64,000 nucleotides of DNA from Crocinitomix sp. (GTDB taxonomy: Bacteria > Bacteroidota > Bacteroidia > Flavobacteriales_D > Crocinitomicaceae): positions 62,001-126,000 of the forward strand of contig WTCE01000005.1 in the NCBI GenBank assembly GCA_013138735.1, given 5' to 3'. How positions within the stretch are numbered: the first letter of the stretch is position 1; each line of letters starts with the position of its first letter. The notes under the pieces are model-generated. The model saw nothing but the letters and a program-made list of their open reading frames with translations. It searched no databases and was not told the DNA's origin. Positions 1,708-32,303 of this stretch are shown here, one piece after another. A program made the translations under genes and the position numbers.

Positions 1708-1733
1708 TTTCACTCATTACAAAGAATAATGCT

Positions 1734-2924: not shown

Positions 2925-2931
2925 TTGACTG

Positions 2932-6090: not shown

Positions 6091-6147
6091 TTGTCTAATT
6101 TTTTATTTTCTACTGTTCTTAAAATTTGATCGATTTTAATTGCAGTA

Positions 6148-8978: not shown

Positions 8979-9068
8979 ACCAGAAGGTTATTTTCAATAC
9001 CCTGCATTTTAAACTTAAAATGAGTGTATTGGGTTAATTACTATATAACTAAGGTACGAAATAAAAAA

Positions 9069-10949
9069 CTACTTATCCTCAATATTATCAAAAGACAAAT
9101 TACTGCTTCCTTCTCCGCGACCAGTAGTTTTTCTACGCCCCATCCAAGTAACAACGGTTCCATCTTCGGTTCTGGTGCGTTGCCAAGTTCGTTTGACAAT
9201 TGCACCAGCACGTGGCACTTCATCTTCATGAATAAAATATGGGCTCCATATTCCATCAAGGAAATTAGCCTTTAAGAGATTTGTTCTTGGTCGAATTCGT
9301 TCGGCAGGAAAACCTTCTATATAACGTGGTAAGGCTCCTCGTTGCAACTGAATTTGACGACTATCTGGAGTTTCTTCCAATTTTGCTGGAATAAACGGAA
9401 TCCAATTTTCAGGAACAGTATTTGATACTTTATATTTAATTACCGCCTCGTTGTCAGTTGGAGGAGTGTCATCAGGAATAGCTAAGAGCTGTAAGAAATC
9501 AACATGTTTAAGTGCAGTTTCGTAGCCATTAATTCCGCCGCCTAAGCCATTTGGAATTGTTTTTTCTATTCCCCAAACCATATTGGCCATTTCATCTCGA
9601 ATGAAATTCACTTCTTCAACCGGAGCGCTCTCAAATACTTGTTCTGCTACTGGAGGAATGAACAGGCGTGTATCAGCAGTAGCATCTCCTGTTGAGCTTA
9701 ATCCAAAGAAAGACCAGCGGTTCCAATCATCATCAACACCATCTGTTCCATTAGCTGACTCAACTAATGTCCGTTGTCCGAAACAGTCAGTAACGACAAT
9801 TTCTTGTATTTCGCAAATGGTTCCGGCTTCAACCGTGTGTGGAAAAATCATCCAATCGTTACTATAGATCAAACCAAACTCTGAAAATATGATTTTTGCG
9901 GTGTCTGAAGTTGAAGGATTCACATCACCTAAATCTACTTTCCGATCTTCCATTTCCCACCAGCGCGGATTTGGCATTCCAGTAAATTTGACTGGAGCTG
10001 GAATTACTGTAAAGGAAGCCTCTTCAATTAAATCCGGATCAGCAACATCCAAAAATAGATCCGTCTCTTTATCAAAATCAAATGCATACCAATCTAAACT
10101 TCCATGATAATATTCATCTGAAACTAATACATTTGGTAAGTCTCCAACTGAGTGCATTGCTCCTATGGAAAATTGATATTCCAATTGGCTAGAGTTCCAA
10201 GCTGAATTACTAGACGAATTGGGCTGTGCATAATTTCTATTAAACCAATCTATGAATTGAGATTTAGCAGAGGTGATAATAGTCAATACGCTCGTCTCTA
10301 TTACAGGGTCTGCGCTAACTTCAGCAGCTATAAATGCGGCAGGGTCATTTCCAATTTCAGACAACCATAAATAAAACTCATATCCGTCGAAAGCACGACC
10401 ATCCGTATGTGCCGCTGTTGCATGCCATAATTCGGGATTACTGTAAAACGCCGAATTGGATGGGTCCGCATTATCAGGCAAAGTAAAGTTGAGATTTAAA
10501 CCATCTGGACCATCTGTTTTTCGAAATTCATCAATAACTATATCTATGATTATTTGTTGGGCTACTGCTGGCAATGGTATTTCTTTTTTAATTCTTTTAC
10601 TCACCAAACGCTCCCAGTAGCGACTCATTTCCAAGCGCATCAAAAAATCAAATTCAATTATTTCCTTTTCAACATTCGCTTCAAGCGGAATATTAGTCGT
10701 TAAATCATCAATATCGTCTGTTGTTTCAGCAATACCCATTACAATTTTATCCAGCTTACTCTTTTTGATGTTTACTTTTGAGAAAATTGCTGAGCCTGTA
10801 TCTTCAGCTTGAAATTCTCCAAACTGCCATTGGCGTGTCATCATCCATAAAGCATCTCGAACTTCCGCTCGCAATGTGCGATCAAAATCTTCAGTTCTTG
10901 GTCTTGGCTCAAGACGGTTCCATGTAATTATTCCTGGTGTTGTGGCCAT
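9069..10949 (-). CDS. Large cluster protein A (626 aa), unknown function
   Basis: This protein has no signal peptide or transmembrane segment. The N-terminus (ITWNRLEPRPRTEDFDRTL, then LWMMTRQWQFGEFQAEDTG) and the C-terminus (WSPYFIHEDEVPRAG, then WMGRRKTTGRGEGSSNLSFD) are blocks I recall from large unnamed proteins of actinobacteria and others, so this looks like a conserved family; I recall no assigned function. The middle is mixed alpha/beta with aromatic-rich segments. It is the last gene of the cluster running from 31896 down to 9069. A 369-base repeat-containing gap separates it from the 1947-aa gene. A catalytic role cannot be argued from the sequence. Confidence 0.8.
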   Translation of the reverse strand: MATTPGIITWNRLEPRPRTEDFDRTLRAEVRDALWMMTRQWQFGEFQAEDTGSAIFSKVNIKKSKLDKIVMGIAETTDDIDDLTTNIPLEANVEKEIIEFDFLMRLEMSRYWERLVSKRIKKEIPLPAVAQQIIIDIVIDEFRKTDGPDGLNLNFTLPDNADPSNSAFYSNPELWHATAAHTDGRAFDGYEFYLWLSEIGNDPAAFIAAEVSADPVIETSVLTIITSAKSQFIDWFNRNYAQPNSSSNSAWNSSQLEYQFSIGAMHSVGDLPNVLVSDEYYHGSLDWYAFDFDKETDLFLDVADPDLIEEASFTVIPAPVKFTGMPNPRWWEMEDRKVDLGDVNPSTSDTAKIIFSEFGLIYSNDWMIFPHTVEAGTICEIQEIVVTDCFGQRTLVESANGTDGVDDDWNRWSFFGLSSTGDATADTRLFIPPVAEQVFESAPVEEVNFIRDEMANMVWGIEKTIPNGLGGGINGYETALKHVDFLQLLAIPDDTPPTDNEAVIKYKVSNTVPENWIPFIPAKLEETPDSRQIQLQRGALPRYIEGFPAERIRPRTNLLKANFLDGIWSPYFIHEDEVPRAGAIVKRTWQRTRTEDGTVVTWMGRRKTTGRGEGSSNLSFDNIEDK

Positions 10950-11318
10950 AATATTTTCTGTTTTTGGTACTTGGTACTTAGTGAGTAGTACTTAGTACGC
11001 TGTATTTCGTTTTCTTTCCTTTTTAATTCGGCATTTCGAGTGACCTCAATGTCCTCACATCTTGCTTCATATTATCATTTTTAATGATCAATTTCGAAGT
11101 TCTTTAATCCTTAATGCGGTGTTCAATATTCACTATTCTTTTTCTTAAATTTTCACTTCTTAATTCAGCATTCGTTAATCATCATTCGACATTCTATTTC
11201 TTTCAGCATTTTTAACTCTGAATGTTGAATTTCGATCACCTCGTCTTGCAGCGTCCTTCGCAAAGGCTTCTGTCGTCGGAGAAAGCTACGCAAGACGAAT
11301 TTCGAAATTCTTTTTTCT
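10950..11318. repeat. Intergenic region with dispersed-repeat fragments
   Basis: No gene is seen in this 369-base gap. It holds near-duplicates of GTACTTAGT around 10970-10999. A copy of the repeat that flanks the GIY-YIG gene lies at 11029-11064, lacking about 21 internal bases. A 35-base block at 11169-11203 recurs at 20427-20461 with one difference. A 9-bp inverted repeat (TCGTCTTGC at 11241-11249, GCAAGACGA at 11290-11298) could form a long hairpin. The region probably attenuates or separates transcripts within the cluster. Confidence 0.65.
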
Positions 11319-14300
11319 TTATTCTACTGCATAATCAGCCGGAGCAATAAATCCATATTGACCATTATTGGCATCCACAATATTTCTTGCAAAATCTAAT
11401 GACGGCGTTGAATCATTCGGACTAATTGCCGCCAATAAAGCTGGTAGTGTTTGACCCCAAATTTTCTCTTTCAAATGATCAGGTTCAACAGCACGTTTTT
11501 TGGCAAGACTTAAAGTTTCATTCAAAGTATCCATTAAATCATCCCATCTCCAATGACCTGTTACTTTTGGTGTAACTGCCATAATTAATGAATTAGCTGC
11601 TTCGGCATTTGGTTCATTATAATGCACAGCAACTCCAGTATGAACATTTGGATAAGGAATTGTCTCTACCCATTCATCTAACACCATTCCGCAATGATTT
11701 CCTTCTAAATCAATTCCCTCTGGCAATTCTAAAACCAAGGATAAGTTATCTCCTGGCATGTCATAATCCGCAGGTAACGTCATTCCAACCCATCTCATTC
11801 GAGCTAATGCTGCGTCTGTATCTTCGCCATCTTCAAGCGGAAGGAGAGGTAATTGTGTCACCATTAACTCACTTGATTGTGATCCTGTTAGCGAATCTGA
11901 ATAAAGGCGCATTTTTTGGTAATTCGACATGTTTGGTTTGACTTTGGCAATACTTTGTGACCATTCTTCCACAGCCATATCACCAACTTCATCCAGCAAG
12001 TTATGTGCATCACGTGCATATCCAACCTCTTCAGAATTCGTTAATTCAAAATTTGGAAATACTCTGAAAGGTCTTCCAAAAATAGCTTGGCCAGCTTTGT
12101 TCACATTGTCGTTAATGGCCTTAATTGAACCTAAAGTTCCTAGTCCGCCGAGCAGAGTTGTCGCTTTTTCTAAACGGTCACTTAAGACACCTTTTAATCG
12201 GTTGCCGATTGAAACTAAATTATCTTTTTCAACCTCGCTAAAATCAAATACTGCACTTGGGTAAATATTAGAAATACCGTAAAAAGCACCTTTTAATATT
12301 TCGTTACGTAAATCAGCCAAAGGAGCTTCATTTGCAGGATCAACGGGATCCGCAGGGTCAAGAGGATAAATTAGACCATCTACGGTTGTTAGATAATCTT
12401 CAATATTTGCAATGAGACTTATCATGTCATTGTCAAAACCTGCCGTGAGACCTGTTACTTTCTTCAAACGATCACTGGTACCGTTTGAACTTAAATAAGC
12501 CACTAAATCTGGAGTAGTCTGGATTTGTGCATCAGCTGCCAATAGGAAGTCCTCATGATTTAGTGTTCGGCTATTCCCAATGATTGATTTCAACTCTTTG
12601 ACCAAAGGTAAAATTTGAAATAATGACAATTCATGCGTGGCTAGTCCAACAGTATCGGTATAAGAAATACGGATTTTTAAGCCATCTTCTTCGATTTCAT
12701 TTTCTATAATATAATAAGCAATTCGAGTTGATAATTCAGTCGCATCTTGGCTTCCACCTTGATCTCCCATTAAGTAAATAAAATCAATTGGTTCAATGTT
12801 TAAATCATCTAGATTTAGTTGCAATGGATTTACGGTTATTATTTCTTCACCTTCAACATCTATTGCAACCGTATCATACTCAACATTAAAAACAATTGAA
12901 CTAGGTAGTGGCATCTGTTTTGAAAGCCAATCATTTAAGCCAGGTTCACTGAATGAACGTGCAGTTCCTTCAACTGTCCATATTGTTGCAGAATCAGTAG
13001 AAGGATCGAATTGAATTCCAAAACGGTGTGTTAAGGCAGCTCCTTGTCGTGGTGTTTTTATAATTTCAGGTTCTTGCACATAGCCCCCTTCACCTAAAAT
13101 CTTCATCACGGCACCTGATCGTTCAATATTTCCTTTAGCCAATTGATACACGCTTTCAGATAGTAATAGATCTGCTATAGCGTCCATGTCGTTTTGGATT
13201 TGGTCAACAACTAACAATATTGCATCTTTTTCCTCAGTAATTACTGTAATCTCACTTAAAACGGAGTTAAACTCTATTTCATCTTGCTCATAGGTATTCA
13301 ATAAAGCCAATCCATCCAAAACATTTCTTGCTTCTTGATTTTCAACAGGAATATCTTCTTTAGGGAGGACTCCTCCAACCGTTAATGGATAAGCTAAACG
13401 AAAATCAAGGATGTATTGATCCAATTGTGGGACATCAGAATCGTCAACAAATAAGTTTGCTATATCATGCAACTCCCTTTCAAAGCGATACCCTAACATT
13501 GCGGCTAAAGATTGTCCATTTTGCAATCCTTCTAAATAAAACATGGCGCGTCTAATTCGCTGTGAAGTTAAATTCACCGCCATGGCATTATCGTCGCTCA
13601 ACGTGAGTTGATGTGACATATAACCCGCCCTTAAAATAGCCGCAGTAACAGCATGATTAACAGATGGCGTATGAATGTATCCTTGGTTTTGATCATCTAT
13701 TTGAGGCACAACACGTACCTTTCCATTGTCAGTATCTCGCTCTAAAATTATAGCAGGATCACCAATTCCTAAATAGGTAAACGCCTCCGTAACAGCTGGT
13801 GAAGTGTCTAATTCCGCCATGCTTCCATCAACCTCAACCACATGAATTCCAGGATTACTTGTATTCGGTTTTAAGTTTTCTAATATTGCAAAAGCACCTA
13901 AATAAATTCCTTTATCTGCGCTTTGTTGACTTTCTAAACGCTCACTTACCATACCTGTCATCCAGGCGTCTAGTCGATAATTGCATAAATCCAAATGTTC
14001 TGCAAATGCTCTTTCTAATCGGGCAGTTGGCAAGCCTTCTAATTTTTCAAGACTATCTTTTAAATAGTTTAGACTTTCTACTGTTCCATGACTGCCCAAT
14101 AGCAGGCCGTCAATATGTGCCTCCATGGTTAAGGCTCCACTGATAGCACCTATTGGTTTTGTCAAATAATCCCACTTGACAGTATCTGCTTTATATTGAC
14201 CAATTCTATTATTGAATTCGCTAGTAATAGTTTGTTGAATCGTATTTTGTGCTTGTCCTAAAAGTTCTCCTTCACGAGTTCTAATTTGATGCCGTGCAAC

Positions 14301-17162
14301 ATTCTGCATGGTTTGAAATTCAACCTCAACTTGTTGTTTAATTTGCAATGTTGTAGTCAGTGTTACTTCTTCGGTAACAGCTTTTAAAACAATCGCTTTT
14401 TCTTCCTCCGAAAGTCCGGTTGCCGCAACAATTCCTTGCAATTCAATTTCTAATTCAGCTTCTGAACTTGCTTTTCCGGCAGCCACTGCTAAACTTGTAG
14501 AGGTATTTAAATACTCTTGCAAATAAGCATGTCTCAATAAGAGATAAAGCAAAGCTTTTGGTGGTTTTTGATCCAATGCGGCACCAGGAATATTATCAAA
14601 GTTTTCTGCCTTGATTCGAGACATTGAAGTTGTTGGATCGATCAACCAATGAATATAATTCCAACCTGTATCAGGAAAGGATTGAATTCCGCGTTCTTCT
14701 GAATAAGGAAATGCCTTAAAGCCATCAATTACTGGTCCGTTTAACAATCTTTGATCTTCTAGAAAATTGAGTTCAAATATTTTTGCAGGTTCGATTAAAA
14801 GCATACCCAACTCAGAATTATATCTAATAACATGATCTCCTACAAGAACATGATCCATAATTTTAAAGTCAGCCGGAAGATCCACCGGACCAACATCAGG
14901 GTTTGAATCGCGAATAAATCGATATAAATTCCACATTTTATGTGCGCCATTAGCGAAACGTTGGTGAAATTCAACCGAACTTGCGTGCAAGCCCATGATA
15001 TCTAAAAACTCTTTTGAAGGATCGTATGATGGATCGCCTGAAATCGAATGGATATCAACGCGGCTAACATCAGTATTTGCTAGTCCACCCCAAATCATAC
15101 TCATAGGTCTGAACAAGTTATGATTTAAACGCTCGTAAAATGCTTCTTTCTGACCAGGGTTATCGCCATATTCCCAACGAGAAAAGGCTGTGCTTGTTAT
15201 TACGCCATAAGGCTGATTATCTACTCTAAATGCTGGTATTTTCCCTCTACCTAAAACATATTGATTAAAGAAATCACGCGTGCGGTTTCGCTCAGCAGTG
15301 CTGATATGTGGATGGAGCATTTGTTTTATATAATACCCCATTGTAGCTGGCCAAAGTGCACGATTCATGGCAATTGCTTCACAAATATCCGTTCCATTCG
15401 CGTGAAAAACGTTTTGAAGCATTTCTTGATCTAAGCCCATTAAATCTGCGAACCATTGTCCGTCTGATTTGTCTAACAATCCAGTTTCTGTAGAAAAAAG
15501 TGGCCCTTTACCCTCAACATGTAAACTTTCCTTAGCGTCAGACTTTATTTTTTCATAACCCGATTTAAGTCCTTCTGTATTGTTTGTTGGTGTTCCTTGC
15601 GGAATTAATGAAAATCCACCTGTTGTATAATGATGGTTTTCTACCAGCTCTTCAAACAATTTAGTAGCCTCTGTTTTATCTGCTCCTAATTTTAATCCTA
15701 AAACTAAAATACGGTGGATATGAACTTCTTCTTCAGGTTCCAATGCAATACTAATTCCCATTCCAACATTCTTAGCTTCTTTAAAGTCTCTAAGCCATTT
15801 AATTTCTTCTGGAAATTGTACTTCGCCTTCATGTTGATCAAAACTCTCTTCCGACTCGTCTGATGGATCCATTCCAACCTGTAAAGGATCTGGTATATGA
15901 CTTCCAACAATCTCGCGATAATTGGATTCGTCTTTATACAATCTTACTACAAATCGATCGGGAAGTACGTATGACTTTGCTGCTTCCGTCCAAGCACTGT
16001 TTTTAATTTCTAAAACTGGAAATGCAGGTACTGCTGGCAAGGGATCTTCTGTTAAATTTGTCGGTTCGGTTTGTTTTGCGATCCACGCTGCACGTTCAGC
16101 TCCATATGCTCCTGATAATACCCTCCATGCTCCTAATTGAGGATCAATTCCTTCTTCCGGAATTTCAAGTCCCCAATAGGCAATCCAGTAAACGTGACCT
16201 GCATTTTCTTCATCAGCAGCCAGACGTTTTTCATGCGTATGAATGGCAATATCATCTGGAAAAACACGGACCCATAATTCTTTTTTATCAGGAATAGAAA
16301 ATCCCCCTCCAGTATCTCCCTCAATGGTACGACGCACATGTTTGATGTCCATATACCGCGTTTCTACACGAACTGGAAGTAATAAAAACGGTGTATCATC
16401 ATTGAAAGTGTCGACTAAATATCGTGGATCATTCAGCATTGAAATTTCCAGTAGATTCATTTCTAAGGCTTGGGTATTAGAACCCAAACTTTGTGAAAAC
16501 CCACCTATTTCACTAATTTTATTTGTCTTGTCTACACCAATATTTACAATTAATTGTAGTTTGGCATTCTGTTCTTGTTGTTTTGCTTGTTTTTTATTTT
16601 GGAGAGCTGAGCGAATTTCCATTTCTGCATTAAGTGCATCATTATCTACCGGGTCAGCACTTTGTAAATCAGAAATCTTTTGAGCGGATTCCTGCATTTT
16701 GATAGTTATATCAGCCACAAATGCTTGATAAGCTGAATCGTTTAGTTCAAGAATTGCTCTTCGCTCTGTCTTTTCAATTTTCGCTAAGGCCTCATTGGCT
16801 ATTTTTAAATCAGCATTTATTGATCTAATCGTATTTTTTAATGAACTGAATTGGCTTTGAAGCTGCGCGTAATTTTGGATTTCTTGCAAGCCCGTAAAGC
16901 CAGTCATTGCGCCTTCAAGATTTAACAGATAATTATCCAATAAATCCATTTCATCATCCCATTGCCTTAACAATGCATCCTTTTGTTGCTGACCTTGTCC
17001 TTGACTTCCGCCCCCTTGACCTTGTCCTCCAGCACCACCCGTTGCAGGTTGTAATTGTTGCAGCTGTGATTCAAAATCAGCAATTTTTACTCTTGAAGCA
17101 CGAACAAATTCACGTGCATTTTCAATTTGAGCTTGAGTATTTATAATTTGATTATTAGGCAT
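11319..17162 (-). CDS. Giant cluster protein B (1947 aa), unknown function
   Basis: No signal peptide is present. Residues 1-240 are a long coiled-coil region interrupted by a Gly/Gln-rich linker at 42-60. A strongly patterned block follows: LLLPVRVETRY (260-270), ELWVRVFPDDIAIHTHE (295-311) and GAYGAERAAWI (351-361). The C-terminal part has GMVLDEWVETIPYPNVHTGV and LAKKRAVEPDHL. I remember equivalent blocks in very large unnamed proteins from other phyla, so the family seems widespread, but it has no function I can name. No nuclease, protease, ATPase or glycosyltransferase motif was found. The next gene upstream (1036 aa) ends 24 bases before its ATG, implying cotranscription. Its size and coiled coil suggest a scaffold; that is inference. 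Confidence 0.85.
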   Translation of the reverse strand: MPNNQIINTQAQIENAREFVRASRVKIADFESQLQQLQPATGGAGGQGQGGGSQGQGQQQKDALLRQWDDEMDLLDNYLLNLEGAMTGFTGLQEIQNYAQLQSQFSSLKNTIRSINADLKIANEALAKIEKTERRAILELNDSAYQAFVADITIKMQESAQKISDLQSADPVDNDALNAEMEIRSALQNKKQAKQQEQNAKLQLIVNIGVDKTNKISEIGGFSQSLGSNTQALEMNLLEISMLNDPRYLVDTFNDDTPFLLLPVRVETRYMDIKHVRRTIEGDTGGGFSIPDKKELWVRVFPDDIAIHTHEKRLAADEENAGHVYWIAYWGLEIPEEGIDPQLGAWRVLSGAYGAERAAWIAKQTEPTNLTEDPLPAVPAFPVLEIKNSAWTEAAKSYVLPDRFVVRLYKDESNYREIVGSHIPDPLQVGMDPSDESEESFDQHEGEVQFPEEIKWLRDFKEAKNVGMGISIALEPEEEVHIHRILVLGLKLGADKTEATKLFEELVENHHYTTGGFSLIPQGTPTNNTEGLKSGYEKIKSDAKESLHVEGKGPLFSTETGLLDKSDGQWFADLMGLDQEMLQNVFHANGTDICEAIAMNRALWPATMGYYIKQMLHPHISTAERNRTRDFFNQYVLGRGKIPAFRVDNQPYGVITSTAFSRWEYGDNPGQKEAFYERLNHNLFRPMSMIWGGLANTDVSRVDIHSISGDPSYDPSKEFLDIMGLHASSVEFHQRFANGAHKMWNLYRFIRDSNPDVGPVDLPADFKIMDHVLVGDHVIRYNSELGMLLIEPAKIFELNFLEDQRLLNGPVIDGFKAFPYSEERGIQSFPDTGWNYIHWLIDPTTSMSRIKAENFDNIPGAALDQKPPKALLYLLLRHAYLQEYLNTSTSLAVAAGKASSEAELEIELQGIVAATGLSEEEKAIVLKAVTEEVTLTTTLQIKQQVEVEFQTMQNVARHQIRTREGELLGQAQNTIQQTITSEFNNRIGQYKADTVKWDYLTKPIGAISGALTMEAHIDGLLLGSHGTVESLNYLKDSLEKLEGLPTARLERAFAEHLDLCNYRLDAWMTGMVSERLESQQSADKGIYLGAFAILENLKPNTSNPGIHVVEVDGSMAELDTSPAVTEAFTYLGIGDPAIILERDTDNGKVRVVPQIDDQNQGYIHTPSVNHAVTAAILRAGYMSHQLTLSDDNAMAVNLTSQRIRRAMFYLEGLQNGQSLAAMLGYRFERELHDIANLFVDDSDVPQLDQYILDFRLAYPLTVGGVLPKEDIPVENQEARNVLDGLALLNTYEQDEIEFNSVLSEITVITEEKDAILLVVDQIQNDMDAIADLLLSESVYQLAKGNIERSGAVMKILGEGGYVQEPEIIKTPRQGAALTHRFGIQFDPSTDSATIWTVEGTARSFSEPGLNDWLSKQMPLPSSIVFNVEYDTVAIDVEGEEIITVNPLQLNLDDLNIEPIDFIYLMGDQGGSQDATELSTRIAYYIIENEIEEDGLKIRISYTDTVGLATHELSLFQILPLVKELKSIIGNSRTLNHEDFLLAADAQIQTTPDLVAYLSSNGTSDRLKKVTGLTAGFDNDMISLIANIEDYLTTVDGLIYPLDPADPVDPANEAPLADLRNEILKGAFYGISNIYPSAVFDFSEVEKDNLVSIGNRLKGVLSDRLEKATTLLGGLGTLGSIKAINDNVNKAGQAIFGRPFRVFPNFELTNSEEVGYARDAHNLLDEVGDMAVEEWSQSIAKVKPNMSNYQKMRLYSDSLTGSQSSELMVTQLPLLPLEDGEDTDAALARMRWVGMTLPADYDMPGDNLSLVLELPEGIDLEGNHCGMVLDEWVETIPYPNVHTGVAVHYNEPNAEAANSLIMAVTPKVTGHWRWDDLMDTLNETLSLAKKRAVEPDHLKEKIWGQTLPALLAAISPNDSTPSLDFARNIVDANNGQYGFIAPADYAVE

Positions 17163-17186
17163 TTTCTAAAATTAAATTCGTGATAA

Positions 17187-20297: not shown

Positions 20298-20649
20298 AAT
20301 GTTTTTTTTTCAACGTGCAATTGTCAATGTGCAATTGTCAATTTTTAGTAGTGTTCAATGTCTTTTTTTTCAATTCTGAATGTCGATTAATGAATTCCGA
20401 AGTGTGTTTTTTACTTCTTCATTCAACATTCGTTAATCATCATTCGACATTCTTTTTCTTTAATCATTTTTCTAAGCAGCATGCTGAATGTCGATCACCT
20501 TGCTTCGCTGGAGTTACGCGAAGGCAAGACGAACTCCGAAGTGTTTTTTTACTTCGATATTCGACATATCGCGTTTCCTCAATATCTTCAATCTTAATTC
20601 TTTATTCTACGGTTTAAACTTCTTGGGTAGTTCAATTAAGAAGTTTGGG
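20298..20649. repeat. Intergenic region with repeats shared with 10950-11318
   Basis: No gene is seen in these 352 bases. A 14-base unit (GTGCAATTGTCAAT) is present twice in tandem at 20315-20342. The block at 20427-20461 matches 11169-11203. A near-palindrome around TGCTTCGC (20501-20508) and GCGAAGGCA follows a TCGATCACC that also occurs in the other gap. The two gaps look like relics of the same dispersed element. Confidence 0.65.
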
Positions 20650-23600: not shown

Positions 23601-24819
23601 AATCAACATCAGTTGGCACTAAATTTATATAGGTGCTTTCACCGTCCGCTTGAAGTCCAATTGTACCTGAAAGGCCGCCTTCAGATCCAACTAGTAAATT
23701 ACGAGCAACAATTGTTGCAGTATTTCCATCTTCTGGGCTAAAGAAATTCGGGAAGCTGATAGTAGCTTCACTAATAAACACTCCTTTAAATTCATTTGAC
23801 CTTCCGTCAGCAGTTGCTTCGGGGATGTTTTTGTCGTCTCGTAGGTCTAATTTTAATTCAGTAACACTTAAAATCAATGCTGTGTTACCAATTCGACATA
23901 GAGGTAGACTATAGGTCACGTCATTGAACAAGTCAAAATAAAATCCTTCTCCTGATTTATATGAGATTCCTCCAATATTATCGCAGGTAAGATAGGCTAG
24001 AGAATCGGGTAAATCTTCTCCGAATTCATCCACCGGCTTTAACCAAGTTCCCGGGAATCGAATACCTACACTCGGAAGTTGAAGGTTAAATTGAATTTCA
24101 GGTTGAATAATATCTAGTAAATCATCTGTAACATCATTAAAAATAGTTTTAAATAGGTCCTTAACCCGATCAATTTTTTCGTCTAAATCATCCCCGATAT
24201 TTACGATTACTTCGTAAATTGTTTTAACGAGTTGTTTCCCTTCATTTGTCATTTGCTCAAAGACATCAATGATTTTCATGGCCTCAGTAAAGGTTGGCTC
24301 AGAGGGAATGGTTATATCTGAAGCATATTGAGCGTTAAAACTCCCAACGAATTCATTTAATGCATCAAGTTCTTCGGCAAAAAAAACTTTTAGGACTTTT
24401 TCAAACAAAGTAATTGGAGTATATCCTGAAAGGTCAATCACAATTTCCAACATTTCCTCTAACGAATCGGCGAGAATCTCTAGCGGCGTTGCGTTTTTAA
24501 AATCAAACGAAAATCGATTAACGTACCTCAATAAGGTCCATTTATAGTCGAATGCAACTGATAAATTATCCGCTCCTGGTGGTGCGATTACAAAAGCTAG
24601 GTCTCCATATATAGGCAGATCCAAATCTCTATAAGTATGAAATGACATCCTGTAGGAACCGATTGAATTGTCGTAAGAATGACCCAACTGCAAATCTTTT
24701 AGATAAATTTGTGTTCCTTTTTCAACAACAAAATTTTCTAAAAATTCGAGTTTTTTCGGCAAAAAATCAAGGTTAATGACCTCTGCCAAACTAGGATATA
24801 AATTTGTGATATCTGACAT
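20650..24819 (-). CDS. Giant cluster protein D (1389 aa), DUF6603-like
   Basis: This beta-rich protein has no signal peptide. Residues 1-240 include helical segments, and about 250-700 is repetitive beta-sandwich-like sequence. A well-patterned domain at roughly 720-1120 includes FTLNGVGGLVAINRTM (809-824), VMFPDDPVKNIAQIVSDL (841-858), GLIGWGTL (875-882), FSVGGFHPAYTPP (981-993), NTVQMGALLDFYY (1026-1038) and GPKPWHVQG (1091-1099). From memory this corresponds to the family annotated DUF6603 in actinobacteria and fungi. No enzymatic role is known to me. The alternating Gly/hydrophobic pattern could be an amphipathic sheet that binds lipid or stacks on itself, which is inference. The lipoprotein gene upstream ends 15 bases from its start. 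Confidence 0.85.
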   Translation of the reverse strand: MSDITNLYPSLAEVINLDFLPKKLEFLENFVVEKGTQIYLKDLQLGHSYDNSIGSYRMSFHTYRDLDLPIYGDLAFVIAPPGADNLSVAFDYKWTLLRYVNRFSFDFKNATPLEILADSLEEMLEIVIDLSGYTPITLFEKVLKVFFAEELDALNEFVGSFNAQYASDITIPSEPTFTEAMKIIDVFEQMTNEGKQLVKTIYEVIVNIGDDLDEKIDRVKDLFKTIFNDVTDDLLDIIQPEIQFNLQLPSVGIRFPGTWLKPVDEFGEDLPDSLAYLTCDNIGGISYKSGEGFYFDLFNDVTYSLPLCRIGNTALILSVTELKLDLRDDKNIPEATADGRSNEFKGVFISEATISFPNFFSPEDGNTATIVARNLLVGSEGGLSGTIGLQADGESTYINLVPTDVDLDFSFDEETKEMVISGNRTILIEGDPETDEDDTVSFVEDECTITIPEEGLSLADAENNYFNITGAGVVTALVDPPDFGVLEFGIGGENKIIIEDFFLTFSKNKVVSSTVTGKIDIDAFEEPLNMTIDFTNGFKIHVSYPYPEIAPLDEQGIEAMDNNIFTLTLRDLELGRINEKFFVGLTGKLTNNLDIPFVNKFVPKSIFAELLKWTQGDGFDYDLTFEWAIGLKLGLSNDGPPELEESTVRIPFNQKKEDGLFKLDGIDLTIVPVEDGVSTKVKLVGASLNLKKKFIFTVDGLGAEVILTKVADDDEIGGNIGPFNAAFNLIPPKGLGIAVKGDNISGGGYVFLDFEKGRYVGVAELRIKDKVTLKVIGIITTKLPSGEKGNSILLLVTAEFTPQDLAFGFTLNGVGGLVAINRTMNLQALRDGVKNNAIDNVMFPDDPVKNIAQIVSDLETIFPVQKGRYTFGIMGLIGWGTLKGVEDEYGNPKSLVTMEIGLMLEVPKPVRLAVLGVIKSILPTEKNDVVKLQVNFVGTIDFGEKYITFDASIYESNFVTFALAGDMAFRLKWGDEPNFLFSVGGFHPAYTPPPLNLPTMNRLMINFLAEENPRLTLSTYLAITSNTVQMGALLDFYYNITNNIQVIGALGFDVLIQFSPFYLRAELYAMMAVVRNNQAVLSVSLYGMLEGPKPWHVQGKAEFVFLKMNLKANFDKTFGEEDTSVLPDVEVMPLVEIEGDKNKNWQAILPSQSNTLVSLKEQGEGVEGIILSHPNGSLRFAQQIVPLHTTINKFGKQVPSDYNQFSLSIEVEEEDAFIAMETTPTKEFFAPADFIELSDNEKLARKSFEKMDAGIKVSVTDSYKTSAYRTRQLAYEKIVYDSTEFPETDFPLQFESAENFQTFVNNNDTSNSELGKKSKAKSNFTPNKLKLATETFKIANLEDLSVFTEDDEELSFDSQAEAHVAMAKLLINNPALVDQIDVVLEHELA

Positions 24820-24834
24820 ATAAAAAGTTTTGTT

Positions 24835-26169
24835 TTAATTCTTGTCGTAGTATTCGTAAACGCGCTGTTGAGTGAATATTAAAGCTGGTTCTCCATCTGG
24901 TACATTTAGGTTATACCCTACCATATACATTTTACAGTTTTGCCAATTATTGTATTCGTCAAAATCGTCATATTCCATATTGTATACACTGAACAAGAAT
25001 CGCTTATCTCTCCCATAATAAAAACGCTGTTCGATTATATTCCCATCAGAATCAAAAATCGTTGTGAAAAAATTAGTTGGGCCTTCTAAATCAGGTTTTA
25101 CACTAAACATAGAATCAGGAACAGACCGACTATTGGTATAATAAAATTTGTCATAACCTCCTAATATTCCCAATTCTACATAATGAGAATCCAGTCGATT
25201 AAATACATCATAAACGTATGTGTCTTTTGTGAAAGCTGCTGAATCTCTAAAAGGGTCTGTAACCATACGATCCAAGTTAATTCGATAAAGGCCATTAAAG
25301 TCTTTCGGAGATTCTGTGAAATTAATCTTCTCAACCACAAGCCCTTTTTCATTGTAAAGGTATTCAGTTCGAGTACGATTGGTGCAATCATACGTCGAAT
25401 CAATACTGTTATAGGATGGCGAAATAACCCTACCTGAACTATTTTTGTTCCCTCCTGTTTTAATAAGTTTATGGCTAATTATGTCAAAAATAGTATCGGG
25501 ATAAAAAAATCGATTCAATAAACCGTTTGAATGATATCGGGTCTCTAACTTATCAGTAATTTCATATTTGTAAAGATCAATGGATCCCTGTTCAAAATAG
25601 TAATCCCGCGATAAAATCAAAGCTGAATCTTTTTCAGAAAACGGTTTACTTTCGTTGGTATATGAAACCGGTAAGTACAATGGCGGTGCGAATTGGTGTA
25701 CAGCTAAAAATTTTGGGTACCTCTGCATATTTGGATATCGATTCTTAATTGATTCGAACTGTTTAACATCACTGATATAATGAGATGAGGCAAATCCTCC
25801 TCTTTTTTGCCAAAATTTTAACGAATCTAATGAAAGTCCCAATATTGATGTGTCTCTAACAATTGTCATTGATGTATTTAAACCATTTATATCAAATTCA
25901 AAAAACCAATTTTCAGGAGATCGGTTTGTTGATAGCGAGGGCACTTCTATTCCGCAGGTATTCATTCTCAATCGAGTATTATTGCTAAAGTTTTTAATTC
26001 TTACATTCTTTAAAGGCCCATTAAATGTCATTTTTTGATATCCCATTGTTGGAACATCCCACTTAAAGGCATTCGAGTCTATTAAACTTGTTTGAGATTC
26101 ATTTTCCGCAGAAACATTACAAGCGGTAAAAAATAAAAAACTAATACATAAAACAAATCCAAACTTCAT
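24835..26169 (-). CDS. Lipoprotein inside the giant-protein cluster
   Basis: The 444-residue product has a typical lipoprotein signal ending FFTAC at residue 16. Among the cluster genes it is the only one with an export signal. The mature part has YD/RHS-like phrases (YLYNEKGLVVEKINF, YNMEYDDFDEYNNWQNCKMY) that resemble short beta-hairpin repeats found in many Bacteroidota lipoproteins, but I cannot assign a family. It is tightly packed, 15 bases before protein D and 5 bases after protein E in transcription order, so it belongs to the same operon and may provide a membrane anchor for the rest. Confidence 0.8.
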   Translation of the reverse strand: MKFGFVLCISFLFFTACNVSAENESQTSLIDSNAFKWDVPTMGYQKMTFNGPLKNVRIKNFSNNTRLRMNTCGIEVPSLSTNRSPENWFFEFDINGLNTSMTIVRDTSILGLSLDSLKFWQKRGGFASSHYISDVKQFESIKNRYPNMQRYPKFLAVHQFAPPLYLPVSYTNESKPFSEKDSALILSRDYYFEQGSIDLYKYEITDKLETRYHSNGLLNRFFYPDTIFDIISHKLIKTGGNKNSSGRVISPSYNSIDSTYDCTNRTRTEYLYNEKGLVVEKINFTESPKDFNGLYRINLDRMVTDPFRDSAAFTKDTYVYDVFNRLDSHYVELGILGGYDKFYYTNSRSVPDSMFSVKPDLEGPTNFFTTIFDSDGNIIEQRFYYGRDKRFLFSVYNMEYDDFDEYNNWQNCKMYMVGYNLNVPDGEPALIFTQQRVYEYYDKN

Positions 26170-26174
26170 AATTA

Positions 26175-29100
26175 TTATTCTACGGGGTCAATAAAATTTA
26201 AAAAAATATCTTCAATACCTGCTCCGACTCTATCAATTTCAGCCTTTATATCTTTCATAACATTGACATAGAAGTCTTCAAATCCATCAGGAACAATTCC
26301 ATCTGGATATTGTATTGTCAATTTACCGTCTTCAACGATATCAAATCGCAAAATAAAACCAAGACCGATACGAAACATTAATCTAACCTTGGCTCCTCCA
26401 GCTAAACTTCCAGACCAACCTTTAGTTACTCCTGCGGATGCTTCAACAAAAAGATTCGTTTTTATACTATCCAAGACTTGACTACAGATTTTTAAGATAT
26501 CGGGAACTCCTGTATATCTGTCAAATTTATTGACCAATGCTTGTCCTACTTCTTGTATTTTAGGTGGGTTTAACAATTCATCTATGTGAAATACCATTCC
26601 TACCATATTTACAAAAGCTGCTGCTATTTTGTCAAAAGTAATATCACTAAGATAGGGACGAGATGCATCTTCTAAATATTCCATTGTTTTCGTGAAAAGT
26701 ATATTATTTCGACTCTTTGGGTCTGTGACCTCTTCTCCGTCTTCGTCCGTATAAAAAAGTTCATCTTTTTGCCATTCATTTTGAAGGTTATGTATAATTA
26801 ATATAATTTGGTTTTTAAATTCCGGCGATTTATTAATAAAAAGCATTGCACGTTTGAAATAAAACATAATTGTAGAAAAAATTTCTTCTAAATCAAATTC
26901 TATTTCACCTCCTATGCCCACTCCTAATTCAATTCCTTTTGTTGCAGTGCTATTTTTTTTCAGCAAATTTTTCCTATGTTCAAAGCCGCTTGCATCAATG
27001 TCAATAATATTTTCTGCTATCCTATATGCACTTCCTGTTGCTAACCCTATTGCTGAACTATGTTTAAAACCGACATTTTTAAATAATCCAATGACGAACG
27101 GTATATCTGAAAATTCAAAATCTTCTGCGAAGGTTGTAGTCGATAATTCGAACGTATTTAACGTTAAATAAGATGTACTACCTGGAGTCAAAAAACCTTC
27201 ATAGTCTCCCGTATCAAGATTAAAACGCCATTCGGTTTCAACATTTTTCGAGACATATTTAATATTTCCATTATGTGATTCAATCGAATATCCAGATATA
27301 TCAGGGAAATTCACTAGTATATTATCTAATTCAAATTCAGCCACAGAGCCATTTCTGGTAACGCGATTTACAACTGCAAAGGACACACCCTTGTCAAAAT
27401 TTAATGCACTTAAAAAGTTACCAATCGTACTATTCACTAACAAACGCTGTAAAAAGCCACCCATTGGCCCTACATTTAATTTACCCTTTGCAAAATAATT
27501 GTTTTCAGTTTCAACTTCGCTCGGAACTCTAGCGTCGATAGAATGTACCATTGGTTTATTGTCATACTTTGCTGAATAATTGTAACTATATCCTAGTTCC
27601 AACTCTCCCTCAGCAAGAACACCGATTCCTGAAATTACCTTATCCCATATTGATTCAGACGACATCCACCCTTTACTCACATCATTTCTATCCGAATTAC
27701 CCTTATTTTTGTCATATTTTAATTTTTTATTGCCATCATTAATATCCGAATCGGTATTGGCACCACCTAAAGATCCTGCAGCATAGGCTGCGAAAAACAG
27801 GCTGAACGAATAGTTTGATTTCACTAAATATTGTGCTGGGTCTATATTATACCCCAATAGGTAACTTGCCAAACCAGTTGCAATAGTACCAAATGGACCA
27901 AGACAAGCTCCTAATGCAGCTAACAATGCAGTTTCCTCTGGCCGTATTGGAAATTCATATTGTTCCGACCCATAAAGTTTTATACCCGCTTCAATTCCGG
28001 CGACTGCTTGGGCTCCATTTTTACTTCTCTTGGAACCACCATTAGCGGAATAATATCCATAAGAAACGCCAACTCCAGCATCCAAATACCCCTTAAATTC
28101 ACCACTCTTAAAAAGAACTAGAACCAACTCATCTATATTCGTTACTTTGCGATACATTCTCATGTATACCTCAAAGTCTGTTGCGATTGGAATTCCCCAT
28201 GTAATACCTAGCGCCGCATCTATGTAACCACCAACACCTCGAATCCATGTTCTTGTTAAAGTTTCTATTGCATAATTATATACATCCTTAAAAAACTGCA
28301 CTATACTTCGCCAAACCTCCTTCAACCATGCTTTTGTTTCCTCATACAACTCTACTAATAGATCAATAGCTTCGTCTATTCCAGCCAAAATTCCTTCGAA
28401 AAAACCTTCTTCAACATATGCGTATTTATCAGCTAATTCTTCCAACATTACTTCTGGTCTGAAGTTAATATGATTAAAAAAGGAATCGGCAGATTGCCTA
28501 TTCGGAAGCTTTATGATACTACCAGGCGTTAAAGTGTAAAAAGTTTCTAGTCCTAATGCATCAAAGATCACTTCTGAACCAGGGTTGACAGTTGACTTAT
28601 AATTGATGAAACGTTCTGTGTTAGTAAGAAGTGTTTCAGGGTTGTCAATATCAGGTGCTATACTAAAATTATAAAAGTCGTCCAGCTGTTCCTCAGTCAA
28701 ATGAGACGAAGGCTCCGTAGCTATTCCATTTTCTATAAACGCATCCTCTGATTTAGATACATTATAATAATAAACATAGTTTAAGTAGAATTTAAGTTTT
28801 ACATCTTGATTTCTACTCCCTGGAGAAAACATTGATTGAGCGGGGAAGCTCATGATATAATTACCATCAATATCATTAATTACCAGGTCTTCATCTGAAT
28901 AATATTGATCATTTATGATACTACTAAAAGTATCACCTGGCTGTATCTTGTAATAGACAAAATCTTCCGATTGACCCATTTGCGCATTATCAGCTATCGT
29001 TTCGACATGTTCGCTTGCAATTACTCCAGCAGGTGAGTAAAACTTTATCTCTGGGTCGATATTTGACAGTTCAACTGCAGTTTTATTGTCAATTATGAAT

Positions 29101-29819
29101 ATTTCTTGATCTGGTCCATCATCAAATTCGTCAAACTGCGTTATAACCTGATTGACTTGAATTTTATCCTCCTCGAAACTAATCGTTGTTGTACCGTCTT
29201 CATACACAAGGCCGATATTGTAATCAAATTTACCATCATCATTTTCGACTCCATTTAAATTTAAAAGAACCTCAGATTGATGTCCAATAAATTTAAAATG
29301 CATTGAATCGAACGCGCCATTCGCTAATTTTTGAGCATGTGGTGCGGCATGATATAACCCCTTCAATTTCATGGTAACTAGCTGTTCGTCAAGATGGTAT
29401 AAAAATGGCGCATCAATCGTAGGTTCATCACCGAGGTCAAAGACATCTTTGTATAAAAGCAAAATATCTTCAAAAATAGCATCAAATTTATGTACTGAGG
29501 AAAATTCGTTTAGTTCCTTTTGGTTTGTAAATATATCAGAAAGAACAAACAAGGCAGCATCAGGGTCTTCACTAAAACCAACAATCAACATGGCCGTTTT
29601 TAAAATGCTAAATGCCTCAGCTAATCCAGGGTTATCAATCTTCGTATCAATATTGACTGAAATGTTGCGCTTATTCGCTTTAACATAGAAATCGCATAAA
29701 AGCGTACTGCGTGTTAATAACTCACTATGTAATGCGGAAGAAAAGTGCTCGTTGGCCAAATATTCCGCATTTGACTTTGAAAAGGTTCCAATACTATTTT
29801 TTGATAAAAAAATTGCCAT
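26175..29819 (-). CDS. Giant cluster protein E (1214 aa) with LysM-like segment
   Basis: No signal peptide is present. A LysM-like motif lies at about 287-335 (VYYKIQPGDTFSSIINDQYY), with the YxIQPGDTxxxI core of the family, which usually binds peptidoglycan or chitin. Residues ~470-525 are strongly amphipathic helix. From about 525 on, the protein has several Gly-rich, hydrophobic beta-like stretches (YLDAGVGVSYGYYS, ALLAALGACLGPFGTIATGL, WSGSLAGGAKVRLMFRIG) of a kind seen in membrane-contacting proteins. LysM in a protein with no export signal recalls LysM proteins of phage-tail-like particles, but no tail, sheath or baseplate gene is present, so that remains a guess. It sits 10 bases after gene F and 5 bases before the lipoprotein gene. 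Confidence 0.8.
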   Translation of the reverse strand: MAIFLSKNSIGTFSKSNAEYLANEHFSSALHSELLTRSTLLCDFYVKANKRNISVNIDTKIDNPGLAEAFSILKTAMLIVGFSEDPDAALFVLSDIFTNQKELNEFSSVHKFDAIFEDILLLYKDVFDLGDEPTIDAPFLYHLDEQLVTMKLKGLYHAAPHAQKLANGAFDSMHFKFIGHQSEVLLNLNGVENDDGKFDYNIGLVYEDGTTTISFEEDKIQVNQVITQFDEFDDGPDQEIFIIDNKTAVELSNIDPEIKFYSPAGVIASEHVETIADNAQMGQSEDFVYYKIQPGDTFSSIINDQYYSDEDLVINDIDGNYIMSFPAQSMFSPGSRNQDVKLKFYLNYVYYYNVSKSEDAFIENGIATEPSSHLTEEQLDDFYNFSIAPDIDNPETLLTNTERFINYKSTVNPGSEVIFDALGLETFYTLTPGSIIKLPNRQSADSFFNHINFRPEVMLEELADKYAYVEEGFFEGILAGIDEAIDLLVELYEETKAWLKEVWRSIVQFFKDVYNYAIETLTRTWIRGVGGYIDAALGITWGIPIATDFEVYMRMYRKVTNIDELVLVLFKSGEFKGYLDAGVGVSYGYYSANGGSKRSKNGAQAVAGIEAGIKLYGSEQYEFPIRPEETALLAALGACLGPFGTIATGLASYLLGYNIDPAQYLVKSNYSFSLFFAAYAAGSLGGANTDSDINDGNKKLKYDKNKGNSDRNDVSKGWMSSESIWDKVISGIGVLAEGELELGYSYNYSAKYDNKPMVHSIDARVPSEVETENNYFAKGKLNVGPMGGFLQRLLVNSTIGNFLSALNFDKGVSFAVVNRVTRNGSVAEFELDNILVNFPDISGYSIESHNGNIKYVSKNVETEWRFNLDTGDYEGFLTPGSTSYLTLNTFELSTTTFAEDFEFSDIPFVIGLFKNVGFKHSSAIGLATGSAYRIAENIIDIDASGFEHRKNLLKKNSTATKGIELGVGIGGEIEFDLEEIFSTIMFYFKRAMLFINKSPEFKNQIILIIHNLQNEWQKDELFYTDEDGEEVTDPKSRNNILFTKTMEYLEDASRPYLSDITFDKIAAAFVNMVGMVFHIDELLNPPKIQEVGQALVNKFDRYTGVPDILKICSQVLDSIKTNLFVEASAGVTKGWSGSLAGGAKVRLMFRIGLGFILRFDIVEDGKLTIQYPDGIVPDGFEDFYVNVMKDIKAEIDRVGAGIEDIFLNFIDPVE

Positions 29820-29829
29820 AATAAGTTTT

Positions 29830-31896
29830 TTAGCTAGAATGGACAGCCGCAGAAATTACTATTTCTGATCCGTCAATTAGTTCAACATTAATAGGGTGTC
29901 CCATAAGGGTGATGAATTCTGAGTTCAATTCGCCAGCAACCATTGGCAGGCAAACCCTAATTTTGCTTTGATGTAATAATTGGGTAAATGTCCTGTAACT
30001 TTCAACATCTACTTCACAAACATACATTGGATGAATGGTTAAGTATGCATTGTCTATGATTACCTCCTCAGTAAGCGCAGTCATTGCATCATATTCTTCG
30101 TGGGTAAATGAAATACTATTAAATTCATTCGTTAATTTTTCATACCCCTCAGTCGAGTTCTGGGTAGTAACCATTAAAAAGTTAAAGTCTACGTCTTCAA
30201 TAAATGGGCCTTCTAATTTCTCCGGGGAGATATTATTATTGCTAAATAGTGAGTTTTCATGGTTAAATATTTGTTCTAAAAAACCAACATTTTTTGTCAT
30301 TGGATCATGATCTAGATCATCATCTAGTCCCCAATTATAAGCCATTTCTTGAAGCGATAAATTTGATTTTTGAATAAGATTAGGCCTTGTGCTGAATACC
30401 ACTTCTTCTTTCATTGAAAAATAAGTAACATTGTGCTTATCCAATGCTATGTTGATTGAAGTGGTATAAAAATCACCATTTTGATTGTCATATTGTAATG
30501 GGGCAAAAAGAGAACTAATTTTTCTAATCATAAAGGTGCCATCCTCGATATCCGAATAATCATAAAGCATGTTTACATTTAGTGGAATAAAAGATTTTAA
30601 AAAGTTATTTGACAATGTGAAGTAATCTTTGTCGTCTCTGTTTAATTTTAGAAGAAAATAACTTGATTTTAACTTTCCGCTATCATCCGAAAGTAACTCT
30701 AAGGTTATCGGTTCTGATTTCCTCAAAGAAACTAAACCATCAACTTTTTTCTCGTTCAACAAAAAATGATATTTGGATTTATGACCGCTTTTAGGGCTCC
30801 CATTTTTTGTGTATACACTTAATATATTAGTTGCACTAGGTCTACCCGCAATTATCGGAATTTGAATTTGAATTCCTAAATCATCATCTGGTTCGGTGAT
30901 ATTGTTTAAGACACCGATTGGCCATTTGTCATAGTAGTTCAATTCAGTATAAACTAAATTTCCATCTTCATCAGTTTCAGAAATGCTATAATTTATTTCA
31001 TCATTAGTTTTAAAGTAGTGGTTATAAGAAAACCCCCAATTATCTCGCAGATCAATATAAATCTTGTTCCTATTTATAAATTTATTTAAATAAGTCTCTG
31101 TTAAGTCTTCTTCTTCGAAAAAAGCGATTGAACCATTTTGATTTTCAATACAGCCATAGTAGGCGACAATATCTACGAAACCTAATATTTTTTCCCTATT
31201 TTGACGGTCATTAAATTGATCAATCAATTGTTCTTTATTTGAAAGGTCCTCATCTAATTCAAATTGAGGAAAGGATAAGATACTTGCATTTTTATCTCTA
31301 AAATCAGCAACTGTCAGTTCATGCTGAAACCCGTCAAGCACAACTTCAACTGCGCACTCACTTGCAGAATCAAACATTCCAAGTTCACATCCCTTTGTTA
31401 CAACCAAAGGGGTGAATTTACTGCTATCAATAAAATATGCTTTTAAGTATTCATCTTCAGAAAGTGATTCAAACCCTAAAATATTTTTTTCAGGAGAAAG
31501 GTCAGTCATATCTATTTCGTTGATGGAGTCCATTTGATTTTTTACAACCTGAAGTAGGTTCGGATGTTCAATTTCGCCAGGTTCTTTAATAAAGTCGTCT
31601 GTTAAGACTGAATTTCTTCTTATACCTCTATAAATAAAATACTTTACAGGGATTCCCCACTTTATTGTGTTTTCTAGCGGATACAATGCGATAGTTAATA
31701 AATTCGCATCTTCGCTATCCTCTGAAATTAGGATGAATGCCTTTGTTATCGCAAAAGCTTTCGCATTACTAGAAAATGTAAACCTATTTTCAACAAGGTA
31801 ACGATCATTTAAGCCTTCCGGTGTTATCTCACCATAAGCCATCTCAGAAGATTGTATGTTCAATTTATCTGGTTCTGTAAAGAAAGATATACTCAT
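29830..31896 (-). CDS. Cluster protein F (~688 aa), unknown function; first gene of operon
   Basis: The frame could begin 17 codons earlier, at 31947, but that extension is cysteine-rich and implausible. The ATG at 31896 (MSISFFTEPDKL) follows an A/T-rich leader of the kind used in this phylum. The N-terminal part has a patterned block (LNDRYLVENRFTFSSNAKAF and KWGIPVKYFIYRGIRRNSVL) that I associate with unnamed Bacteroidota proteins. The rest is acidic and beta-rich, with no catalytic signature and no signal peptide. It heads the cluster in transcription order; the next gene begins 10 bases after its stop. The function is unknown. Confidence 0.75.
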   Translation of the reverse strand: MSISFFTEPDKLNIQSSEMAYGEITPEGLNDRYLVENRFTFSSNAKAFAITKAFILISEDSEDANLLTIALYPLENTIKWGIPVKYFIYRGIRRNSVLTDDFIKEPGEIEHPNLLQVVKNQMDSINEIDMTDLSPEKNILGFESLSEDEYLKAYFIDSSKFTPLVVTKGCELGMFDSASECAVEVVLDGFQHELTVADFRDKNASILSFPQFELDEDLSNKEQLIDQFNDRQNREKILGFVDIVAYYGCIENQNGSIAFFEEEDLTETYLNKFINRNKIYIDLRDNWGFSYNHYFKTNDEINYSISETDEDGNLVYTELNYYDKWPIGVLNNITEPDDDLGIQIQIPIIAGRPSATNILSVYTKNGSPKSGHKSKYHFLLNEKKVDGLVSLRKSEPITLELLSDDSGKLKSSYFLLKLNRDDKDYFTLSNNFLKSFIPLNVNMLYDYSDIEDGTFMIRKISSLFAPLQYDNQNGDFYTTSINIALDKHNVTYFSMKEEVVFSTRPNLIQKSNLSLQEMAYNWGLDDDLDHDPMTKNVGFLEQIFNHENSLFSNNNISPEKLEGPFIEDVDFNFLMVTTQNSTEGYEKLTNEFNSISFTHEEYDAMTALTEEVIIDNAYLTIHPMYVCEVDVESYRTFTQLLHQSKIRVCLPMVAGELNSEFITLMGHPINVELIDGSEIVISAAVHSS

Positions 31897-32303
31897 AAAA
31901 TATTTAATAATGTTTAAACAACAAGGGTCATTTTTTGGGCACAACATAGCTAAAGCATGCTGAGGGGGATACCGAGAAAATTTTCAAATAATGGGTGAAA
32001 TAAATTCAGACACTATTAGGTTAACGACTTTGTTATTGTTAGTAACGCAAATAAGATAGAAAGATTACAGCGATTAACAATAAAAAAAATCCGCGATTGG
32101 TGAATTTTATTTTTTGAAATGATAAAAATGCTTATTTAACAGGAGTTTTGAGCGGTGTTAATTTTATGTTAAAAAAGTGTAAAAAATAAATTGATGTGGC
32201 TTTTTTGATTGATTTGGAGTTTTTTAGAAAGTAGTTTTACAACATAAAATGTTCAACAGAATTCATTGAAATTCAACATATTATTTTCAGGAAGAACATT
32301 TTT
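31897..32303. other. Intergenic region upstream of the giant-protein cluster
   Basis: No gene is supported in these 407 bases. The region is A/T-rich and must hold the cluster promoter, but no TAnnTTTG element was found on the minus strand near 31896. No clear terminator follows the SBBP frame that ends at 32304. T-rich tracts lie around 32195-32230. Confidence 0.5.

Follow-up and report, generated by a model that had tools for sequence, protein, structure and literature searches.

Near-fixed order of four giant genes and exchange of the adjoining enzyme gene suggest an unrecognised enzyme-carrying machine

What does a run of giant genes do when most of its products match no described protein family? 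The question is raised by seven adjacent minus-strand genes in a 64,000-nucleotide (nt) stretch of a Crocinitomix genome (Bacteroidota; assembly GCA_013138735.1, contig WTCE01000005.1, positions 62,001–126,000), the whole of which we call the window. Four of the seven form a core that recurs in bacteria and archaea, and its near-fixed order, together with an enzyme gene directly before it that is exchanged between loci, suggests an unrecognised machine that carries and deploys interchangeable enzymes. Specifically, with a probability that we put at about 0.45, the four core genes would specify a soluble chassis of several proteins, which carries the enzyme encoded just upstream and deploys it. 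More tentative still is the broader proposal that systems with the domain DUF6603 represent an unrecognised class of nanomachine, spread horizontally among bacteria and archaea, in which a four-protein carrier with an amphipathic beta-belt would deploy a plug-in enzyme, such as a protease, phosphatase, phospholipase or copper oxidase, in some cases via a common C-terminal docking domain.

The operon in the window comprises open reading frames (ORFs) of 626, 1947, 1036, 1389, 444, 1214 and 705 amino acids (aa), numbered g1 to g7 and transcribed from g7 to g1; the ORF list agrees with the genes and sizes given in a first-pass annotation of this DNA, whose 688-aa protein is g7 begun at an inner ATG. 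The first core gene is g4 (20650–24819, 1389 aa), a clear member of DUF6603 (PF20248), which is a family name without a function; its residues 685–1240 match the Pfam model at 367.4 bits (cut-off 27; expect value, E, 1.4e-109), the sole known domain of g1–g7. It is followed by g3 (17187–20297, 1036 aa), which contains the blocks GPGDIVG, DFEPNY and ELLWREYPTDQRGTYF, by g2 (11319–17162, 1947 aa), with the block LLPVRVETRY, and by the fourth core gene, g1 (9069–10949, 626 aa), with the blocks RQWQFGEFQAED and HEDEVPRAG. We refer to the corresponding families as F4 (DUF6603), F3, F2 and F1; alignments of F2 and F1 had 52 and 71 members respectively. The four patterned blocks pointed out in the first-pass annotation are present in g2, g3, g4 and g1, where they fall in conserved alignment regions.

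To establish how far this arrangement is kept, we scanned species genomes with five aligned F3 members and retained the best 80 of the 300 relatives found, a selection that favours close and complete loci. All four families lay on one strand in 69 of these 80 loci, as they do in the window, and the order was broken in none; one or more core genes were lacking in the other 11, nine of which are at contig ends. We define the type-A DUF6603 core as F4-F3-F2-F1, on one strand and in that order. Besides Bacteroidota, its bacterial hosts include Actinomycetota, Pseudomonadota, Cyanobacteriota, Chloroflexota, Myxococcota and Nitrospirota, and further hosts are Acidobacteriota, Gemmatimonadota, a Chthoniobacterales bin, Goldiibacteriota and a Nitrososphaerales archaeon. 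In tblastn searches of 72,556 plasmid records, g3 matched 13 and g4 matched 14, with 13 in common in which the two matches lie side by side, from Streptomyces, Nocardia, Rhizobium, Paraburkholderia, Gemmatirosa and four haloarchaea. Eight annotated plasmid regions encode DUF6603 followed, in the same order, by proteins of ~860–1700, 1200–3100 and 500–1200 aa that match g3, g2 and g1, some of the core proteins being split into two or three ORFs. Of 18 junctions between core genes, taken from six plasmid loci with annotation, six overlap by 4 nt. The idea that the genes form one conserved cross-phylum set thus holds for g4, g3, g2 and g1, which co-occur in order across phyla and into archaea, but it is not supported for g5–g7, which had no relatives among the neighbouring proteins of core loci (a later exception, g7, is described below): the system has four conserved genes rather than seven.

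The core genes are rare and patchy. Among 296 genomes of the window's phylum, its own included, DUF6603 exceeded the cut-off in 12 and F3 was found in seven (one match being weak); DUF6603 adjoins F3 in all seven, and the six with strong matches hold all four families. F3 was likewise found in five of 197 genomes from the phylum to which a Streptomyces locus belongs (that locus included), each time with DUF6603 adjacent, so that none of the 12 F3 genomes in the two phylum samples lacks DUF6603. The converse fails, since five DUF6603 genomes have no type-A F3 and in another, G304, F3 is matched weakly. In a sample of the order, DUF6603 was matched in three of 150 genomes, two of them above the cut-off.

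The gene directly before F4 varies greatly. We ran 65 upstream proteins from the 80 loci (L022–L101) against Pfam at E 0.01 rather than the curated cut-offs; the remaining 15 loci gave none, either because F4 was truncated or absent or because no 150-aa ORF was present within 900 nt. The matches comprised Peptidase_M64 (14), PhoD (9), Peptidase_S8 (6), PLDc_2 (3), tyrosinase (2), galactose-oxidase-like (2), M14 (1) and beta-lactamase2 (1), together with the trypsin-type and Nal1 models NAL1_N (5), Trypsin_2 (4) and Trypsin (3). With ten proteins added from plasmid or genome loci, the resulting 75 formed BLAST groups of 27, 14, 11, 4, 3, 3, 2, 2 and 2 plus seven singletons, the largest of which unites S8 and trypsin-like proteins. 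Catalytic motifs are generally kept: HExxH in all 14 M64 proteins, HxKx4D in all three of the phospholipase D (PLD) type, GDQxY in 10 of 11 PhoD proteins and a G-x-S/C-G-type motif in 20 of 21 trypsin-like proteins. Three S8 patterns fitted five, three and four of the six S8 proteins and thus performed poorly, for which reason the S8 labels rest on Pfam (L039, L052, L097, L046, L022, G182 and G358), apart from L031 and L041, whose labels are deduced from group membership and the total of six S8 proteins in the scan. The label ‘trypsin-like’ denotes group membership, which Pfam backs in part only and sometimes below the curated cut-off, and the upstream ORFs of L006 and L012, probably not real genes, were left unlabelled.

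Mapped on a rapidly built tree of 88 F3 proteins (LG+G4, with warnings about long branches and composition), enzyme class requires at least 34 changes over 69 labelled rows and 11 classes, for which the minimum is 10; unlabelled rows were left out of the count. With shuffled labels the mean was 42.8 changes and the count never fell under 38. Enzyme class is therefore clustered beyond chance, but its inheritance reaches over short spans only; two rows from Streptomyces, L046 (S8) and L064 (trypsin-like), are paired with full support. Some of the slot proteins have a module in common: the stretch of ~105 residues that ends the trypsin-like enzymes is also present on S8 subtilases. A model derived from 21 group members without an S8 match finds L097, L052, L039 and L041 with E from 1.9e-18 to 2.1e-12, with zero reversed decoys at E 1, and in all the domain is present on six of the nine S8 proteins tested (these four, G182 and G358). 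It also occurs as a stand-alone protein of 138–148 aa adjoining a protease (L018, 4807–5232; L023, 4650–5066; L098, 4619–5065), and tandem proteases can each bear it. Only three of the 296 genomes contain it: in two it is encoded immediately before F4, and the third, which has no match to the core, has a broken copy. This domain may serve in docking or regulation.

An enzyme-loaded carrier fits the giant soluble proteins, their near-fixed order, the exchangeable enzyme and the lack of visible export signals. In such a machine, the four core proteins would assemble, the amphipathic beta-sheet of DUF6603 would line part of the assembly or coat it, docking of the enzyme would fall to the shared C-terminal domain, and the loaded complex would act outside the producer. 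M64, S8, PhoD and tyrosinase enzymes are classes that are usually secreted, which makes action outside the cell likelier than action inside, and the core and most of the enzymes show no export signal although these classes are typically secreted, which again points to the complex as the agent that acts outside. Such signals were sought with a crude hydropathy scan, which found no membrane-type stretch in g1–g4 or g7 and one marginal stretch inside g6; g5 alone of the seven has an N-terminal lipoprotein-type stretch, which bears out the earlier description of a set without export signals except for one lipoprotein. Among relatives the same scan flagged stretches in 77 of 84 F4, 36 of 88 F3, 22 of 80 F2 and 7 of 83 F1 proteins, with only one of 335 core relatives flagged inside the first 35 residues.

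Several observations weigh against this proposal. Assembly, cargo binding and export by the core are all predictions from sequence. F3 is found without an adjacent F4 in L035 and L055, despite 9.9 and 5.1 kb of upstream sequence, and a locus of Leptolyngbya PCC 7375 has the order F2, F1, PhoD-like gene (labelled by eye), F4; the core partners stay together in this rearranged locus, yet the order is not universal. The C-terminal domain is not present on three of the nine S8 proteins tested (L031, L046 and a 2706-aa protein described below), and its limitation to S1-type and S8 enzymes means that docking elsewhere would need other means. Upstream proteins of the L074 type (four), the L094 type (three) and several singletons belong to no known family, and 14 of the 75 upstream proteins do have an N-terminal hydrophobic stretch by a loose, crude test. 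The slot in the window is occupied by g7-g6-g5, among which Pfam and Protein Data Bank (PDB) searches recognised no enzyme. Finally, sheath, Tc and capsid families gave no match to g1–g7 in Pfam, NCBIfam, PHROGs and PADLOC scans, the predicted F3 model (predicted local distance difference test score 84.5) has no significant structural match, including in BFVD at E 0.001, and the fold matches of F4 have root-mean-square deviations (rmsd) of ~10 Å or more.

The known systems nearest in function are Tc or ABC toxin complexes, contractile injection systems and polymorphic toxin systems. In Tc complexes a small number of giant proteins are arranged around an enzyme that differs from one species to another (PMC6868009), and by our working hypothesis the core would act alike. 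Here, however, the payload is a separate upstream gene and the system also occurs in archaea, and TcdB_toxin_midN, the TcB core domain, was found neither in the window's genome nor among the Pfam matches of g1–g7. The best reading is a chassis functionally like the payload-carrying toxin complexes but unrelated to them in sequence. Extracellular contractile injection systems, according to the summary in PMC11297309, inject protein toxins and occur in bacteria and archaea; they differ in that the contig of the window (C155) has no sheath-family match. The window's genome (G000) has five such matches, on contigs C1, C15, C29 and C117, three of them over the cut-off, and may encode a contractile system elsewhere. 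In polymorphic toxin systems a conserved carrier is combined with many toxin types moved by recombination (PMC3482391, in its general account); as sketched there, the toxin is the C-terminal module of the carrier, whereas here it would be a free-standing upstream gene.

The explanation that survives best beside an enzyme-carrying chassis, though an unlikely one, is an intracellular defence or abortive system, whose giant proteins would detect a threat and then set the adjoining enzyme loose within the cell. Swappable effectors, trypsin-like proteases and PLD enzymes among them, the patchy occurrence (12 of 296 genomes) and the location in an island all resemble defence systems. On the other hand, PADLOC, whose library covers described systems only, matches none of g1–g7, Pfam recognises no nucleoside triphosphatase or nuclease domain in the core, and tyrosinases, galactose-oxidase-like proteins and M64 peptidases are not known as usual defence effectors.

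A shade less probable is a proteinaceous cage or compartment in which an otherwise harmful enzyme would be stored or shielded within the producing cell. Enzymes such as proteases, oxidases and hydrolases need control where they lack obvious signals, and giant soluble proteins conserved as a set would suit a scaffold; capsid-type families, however, find nothing in g1–g7 (nor does any encapsulin or HK97-type shell model of Pfam, with folds predicted for F4 and F3 only), and F3, as noted, resembles no structure significantly. The other family searches gave weak matches at most for g1–g7 (NCBIfam, PHROGs and PADLOC), and g1, g2 and g3 matched no Pfam or NCBIfam model except for one weak hit. For g6 there was no Pfam, PHROG, PADLOC or PDB match and one weak NCBIfam motif (0.042); a LysM-like stretch noticed in it by eye received no support from Pfam. 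In the PDB, g6, g7, one L074-type and one L094-type upstream protein had no match, F3 had no solved relative and F1 a single marginal match (3kdq, 0.023), while the best matches of F4 (0.0028) and F2 (0.0018) were designed or coiled-coil helices, which we attribute to composition. Comparison with hhalign revealed no homology between F3 and F1 or between F2 and F3. A phage origin found little support: PHROGs gave weak matches only, the best at 0.015, with g4 matching a tail tape measure family (0.032) and g1 a virion family (0.17); F4 and F3 have no relatives on viral contigs, and the F3 model has no BFVD match at E 0.001.

We consider it improbable that the set forms the coat of a lipid or hydrophobic particle, with DUF6603 as an ApoB-like amphipathic beta-belt and the enzymes acting at the particle surface. 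The predicted model of g4 has ~26 antiparallel, amphipathic strands, and F4 is alike to the Apolipoprotein B-100 beta-sheet and to outer-membrane beta-barrels in this long predicted sheet; it differs from both in that, beyond the poor rmsd, we found no sequence relation to them and saw no export signal, and the family is also archaeal. Least probable is a surface or matrix structure that would be exported by some other route, with co-transcribed but functionally separate enzymes, for which speak the lamin-tail (F1, three haloarchaea), BGTF surface (F2, two haloarchaea) and VCBS (F3, Streptomyces longwoodensis) domains annotated in some members, and against which stand the one fixed position of the enzyme gene and the domain common to S1-type and S8 enzymes.

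The first-pass annotation held that homologues scattered without each other would count against a single system, and part of the data is of this kind. Apart from the F3 relatives of L035 and L055, DUF6603 occurs without type-A relatives of g1–g3, but then as part of a parallel giant-gene set, which we call type B and found at eight loci, from the five DUF6603 genomes without type-A F3, from G304 and from G005. These encode a DUF6603 protein of ~1300–3200 aa, mostly followed by an F3-like protein and at several loci by a third protein of ~1240–1400 aa; weak F3 matches (8e-7 to 5e-4) were obtained at five of the eight and none at G195, G246 and G005. Directly upstream of type-B DUF6603, two loci encode a metallo-beta-lactamase, another a class 3 lipase and a fourth a DUF4135 protein. 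At type-B loci (L115–L125, L016–L017) we also observed a Kelch protein downstream and, in one case, a cluster with a polyketide synthase after it. A protein with a just sub-threshold S74 domain adjoins one enzyme-bearing type-B locus, and phage tail collar-domain genes occur as three tandem copies ~16 kb from a type-B DUF6603 (L116, 215–1849) and as one gene ~6 kb from another (L122, 10363–11007). The upstream enzymes, the S74 domain and the tail collar genes point weakly toward an enzyme-carrying function. Leptolyngbya PCC 7375 (L146, L147) has three DUF6603 loci, one of which, besides the rearranged one, looks like type B. Within the window's own family, L019 (3960–18594) encodes a 1954-aa protein with a sub-threshold DUF6603 match and, by eye, a g4-like N-terminus; its neighbours are a 2263-aa protein, an M15/PG_binding protein and a metallo-beta-lactamase-like protein whose match falls just short of the threshold. 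We found no description of DUF6603 (PF20248) in the literature, a search that left preprints and most subscription papers aside, so that the family may be described elsewhere.

In the window itself, the three genes before the core are g7 (29830–31947, 705 aa), the first of the operon; g6 (26175–29819, 1214 aa), near the position of the enzyme slot of other loci and with no family found; and g5 (24835–26169, 444 aa), a putative lipoprotein with an N-terminal hydrophobic stretch and a Cys, outside the conserved core. In transcription order the six gaps of the operon measure 10, 5, 15, 352, 24 and 369 nt, so that a spacing of mostly 5–24 bases, as first described, applies to four of them and not to the g4–g3 (352 nt) and g2–g1 (369 nt) gaps. 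Both of the latter contain the same exact 25-bp interspersed repeat (20427–20451 and 11169–11193, minus strand), of which the genome has nine copies with up to three mismatches, four of them within ~330 bp on contig C130; the matching gaps in the closest relative (L022) are 2 nt (F4–F3) and 41 nt (F2–F1). Five terminators were predicted in 8900–28800 against 13.7 expected, a number that decides neither for nor against a single transcript, and Rfam gave no match within the window.

The operon and two SBBP-like genes form an island (6811–34606, junctions approximate) that is absent at this site in two sister genomes: the interval between the orthologous flanking genes, whose products share 90–96% identity with their sister orthologues, is 27,977 nt in the window and 316 nt in G447 and G445. 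In the Crocinitomix bin G443, the closest relative, which is one genome with G445 (the compared stretches are identical), this site is empty and the core set lies at another chromosomal site. Since the site is empty in the sisters and the set lies elsewhere in G443, the operon with its two SBBP-like genes is a separate insertion. Between the window and G443, F4, F3, F2 and F1 share 56–71% identity and the slot contents differ, G443 having a 2706-aa protein with an S8 domain and a 295-aa protein in place of g7-g6-g5. It is here that g7 finds its relative, for it resembles residues 1485–1790 of this subtilase-bearing protein (blastp 71 bits, 26% identity over 319 columns, E 4e-16 against three sequences; phmmer --max 56 bits), a similarity that phmmer with its bias filter on does not detect. 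The SBBP-like protein encoded just downstream of g1 (6936–8978, minus strand, 680 aa, labelled by eye) is 56% identical over 675 aa to the product of the gene after F1 in G443. Its paralogue at the opposite edge (32304–34391, minus strand; two ORFs of 239 and 450 aa in one frame) shares 83% DNA identity with it over 687 nt, and this pair of paralogues flanking the operon may be a trace of the island's movement; inspection of the larger ORFs by eye showed no recognisable recombinase. Beside the island, a three-gene unit at 4537–6669 has two tandem copies in the sister genome G445 (C68).

Three of the four core proteins in the window fall outside the Pfam and NCBIfam models, one weak hit aside, yet the gene order is kept from bacteria to archaea. 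If the core does carry enzymes, it would be a new kind of modular protein machine, and the payload of the window would be a new or unrecognised one. It would also explain why proteases, tyrosinases and phosphatases without obvious signals adjoin giant genes with no assigned role, and the neighbour rule, by which the enzyme is encoded directly before DUF6603, would make function testable locus by locus.

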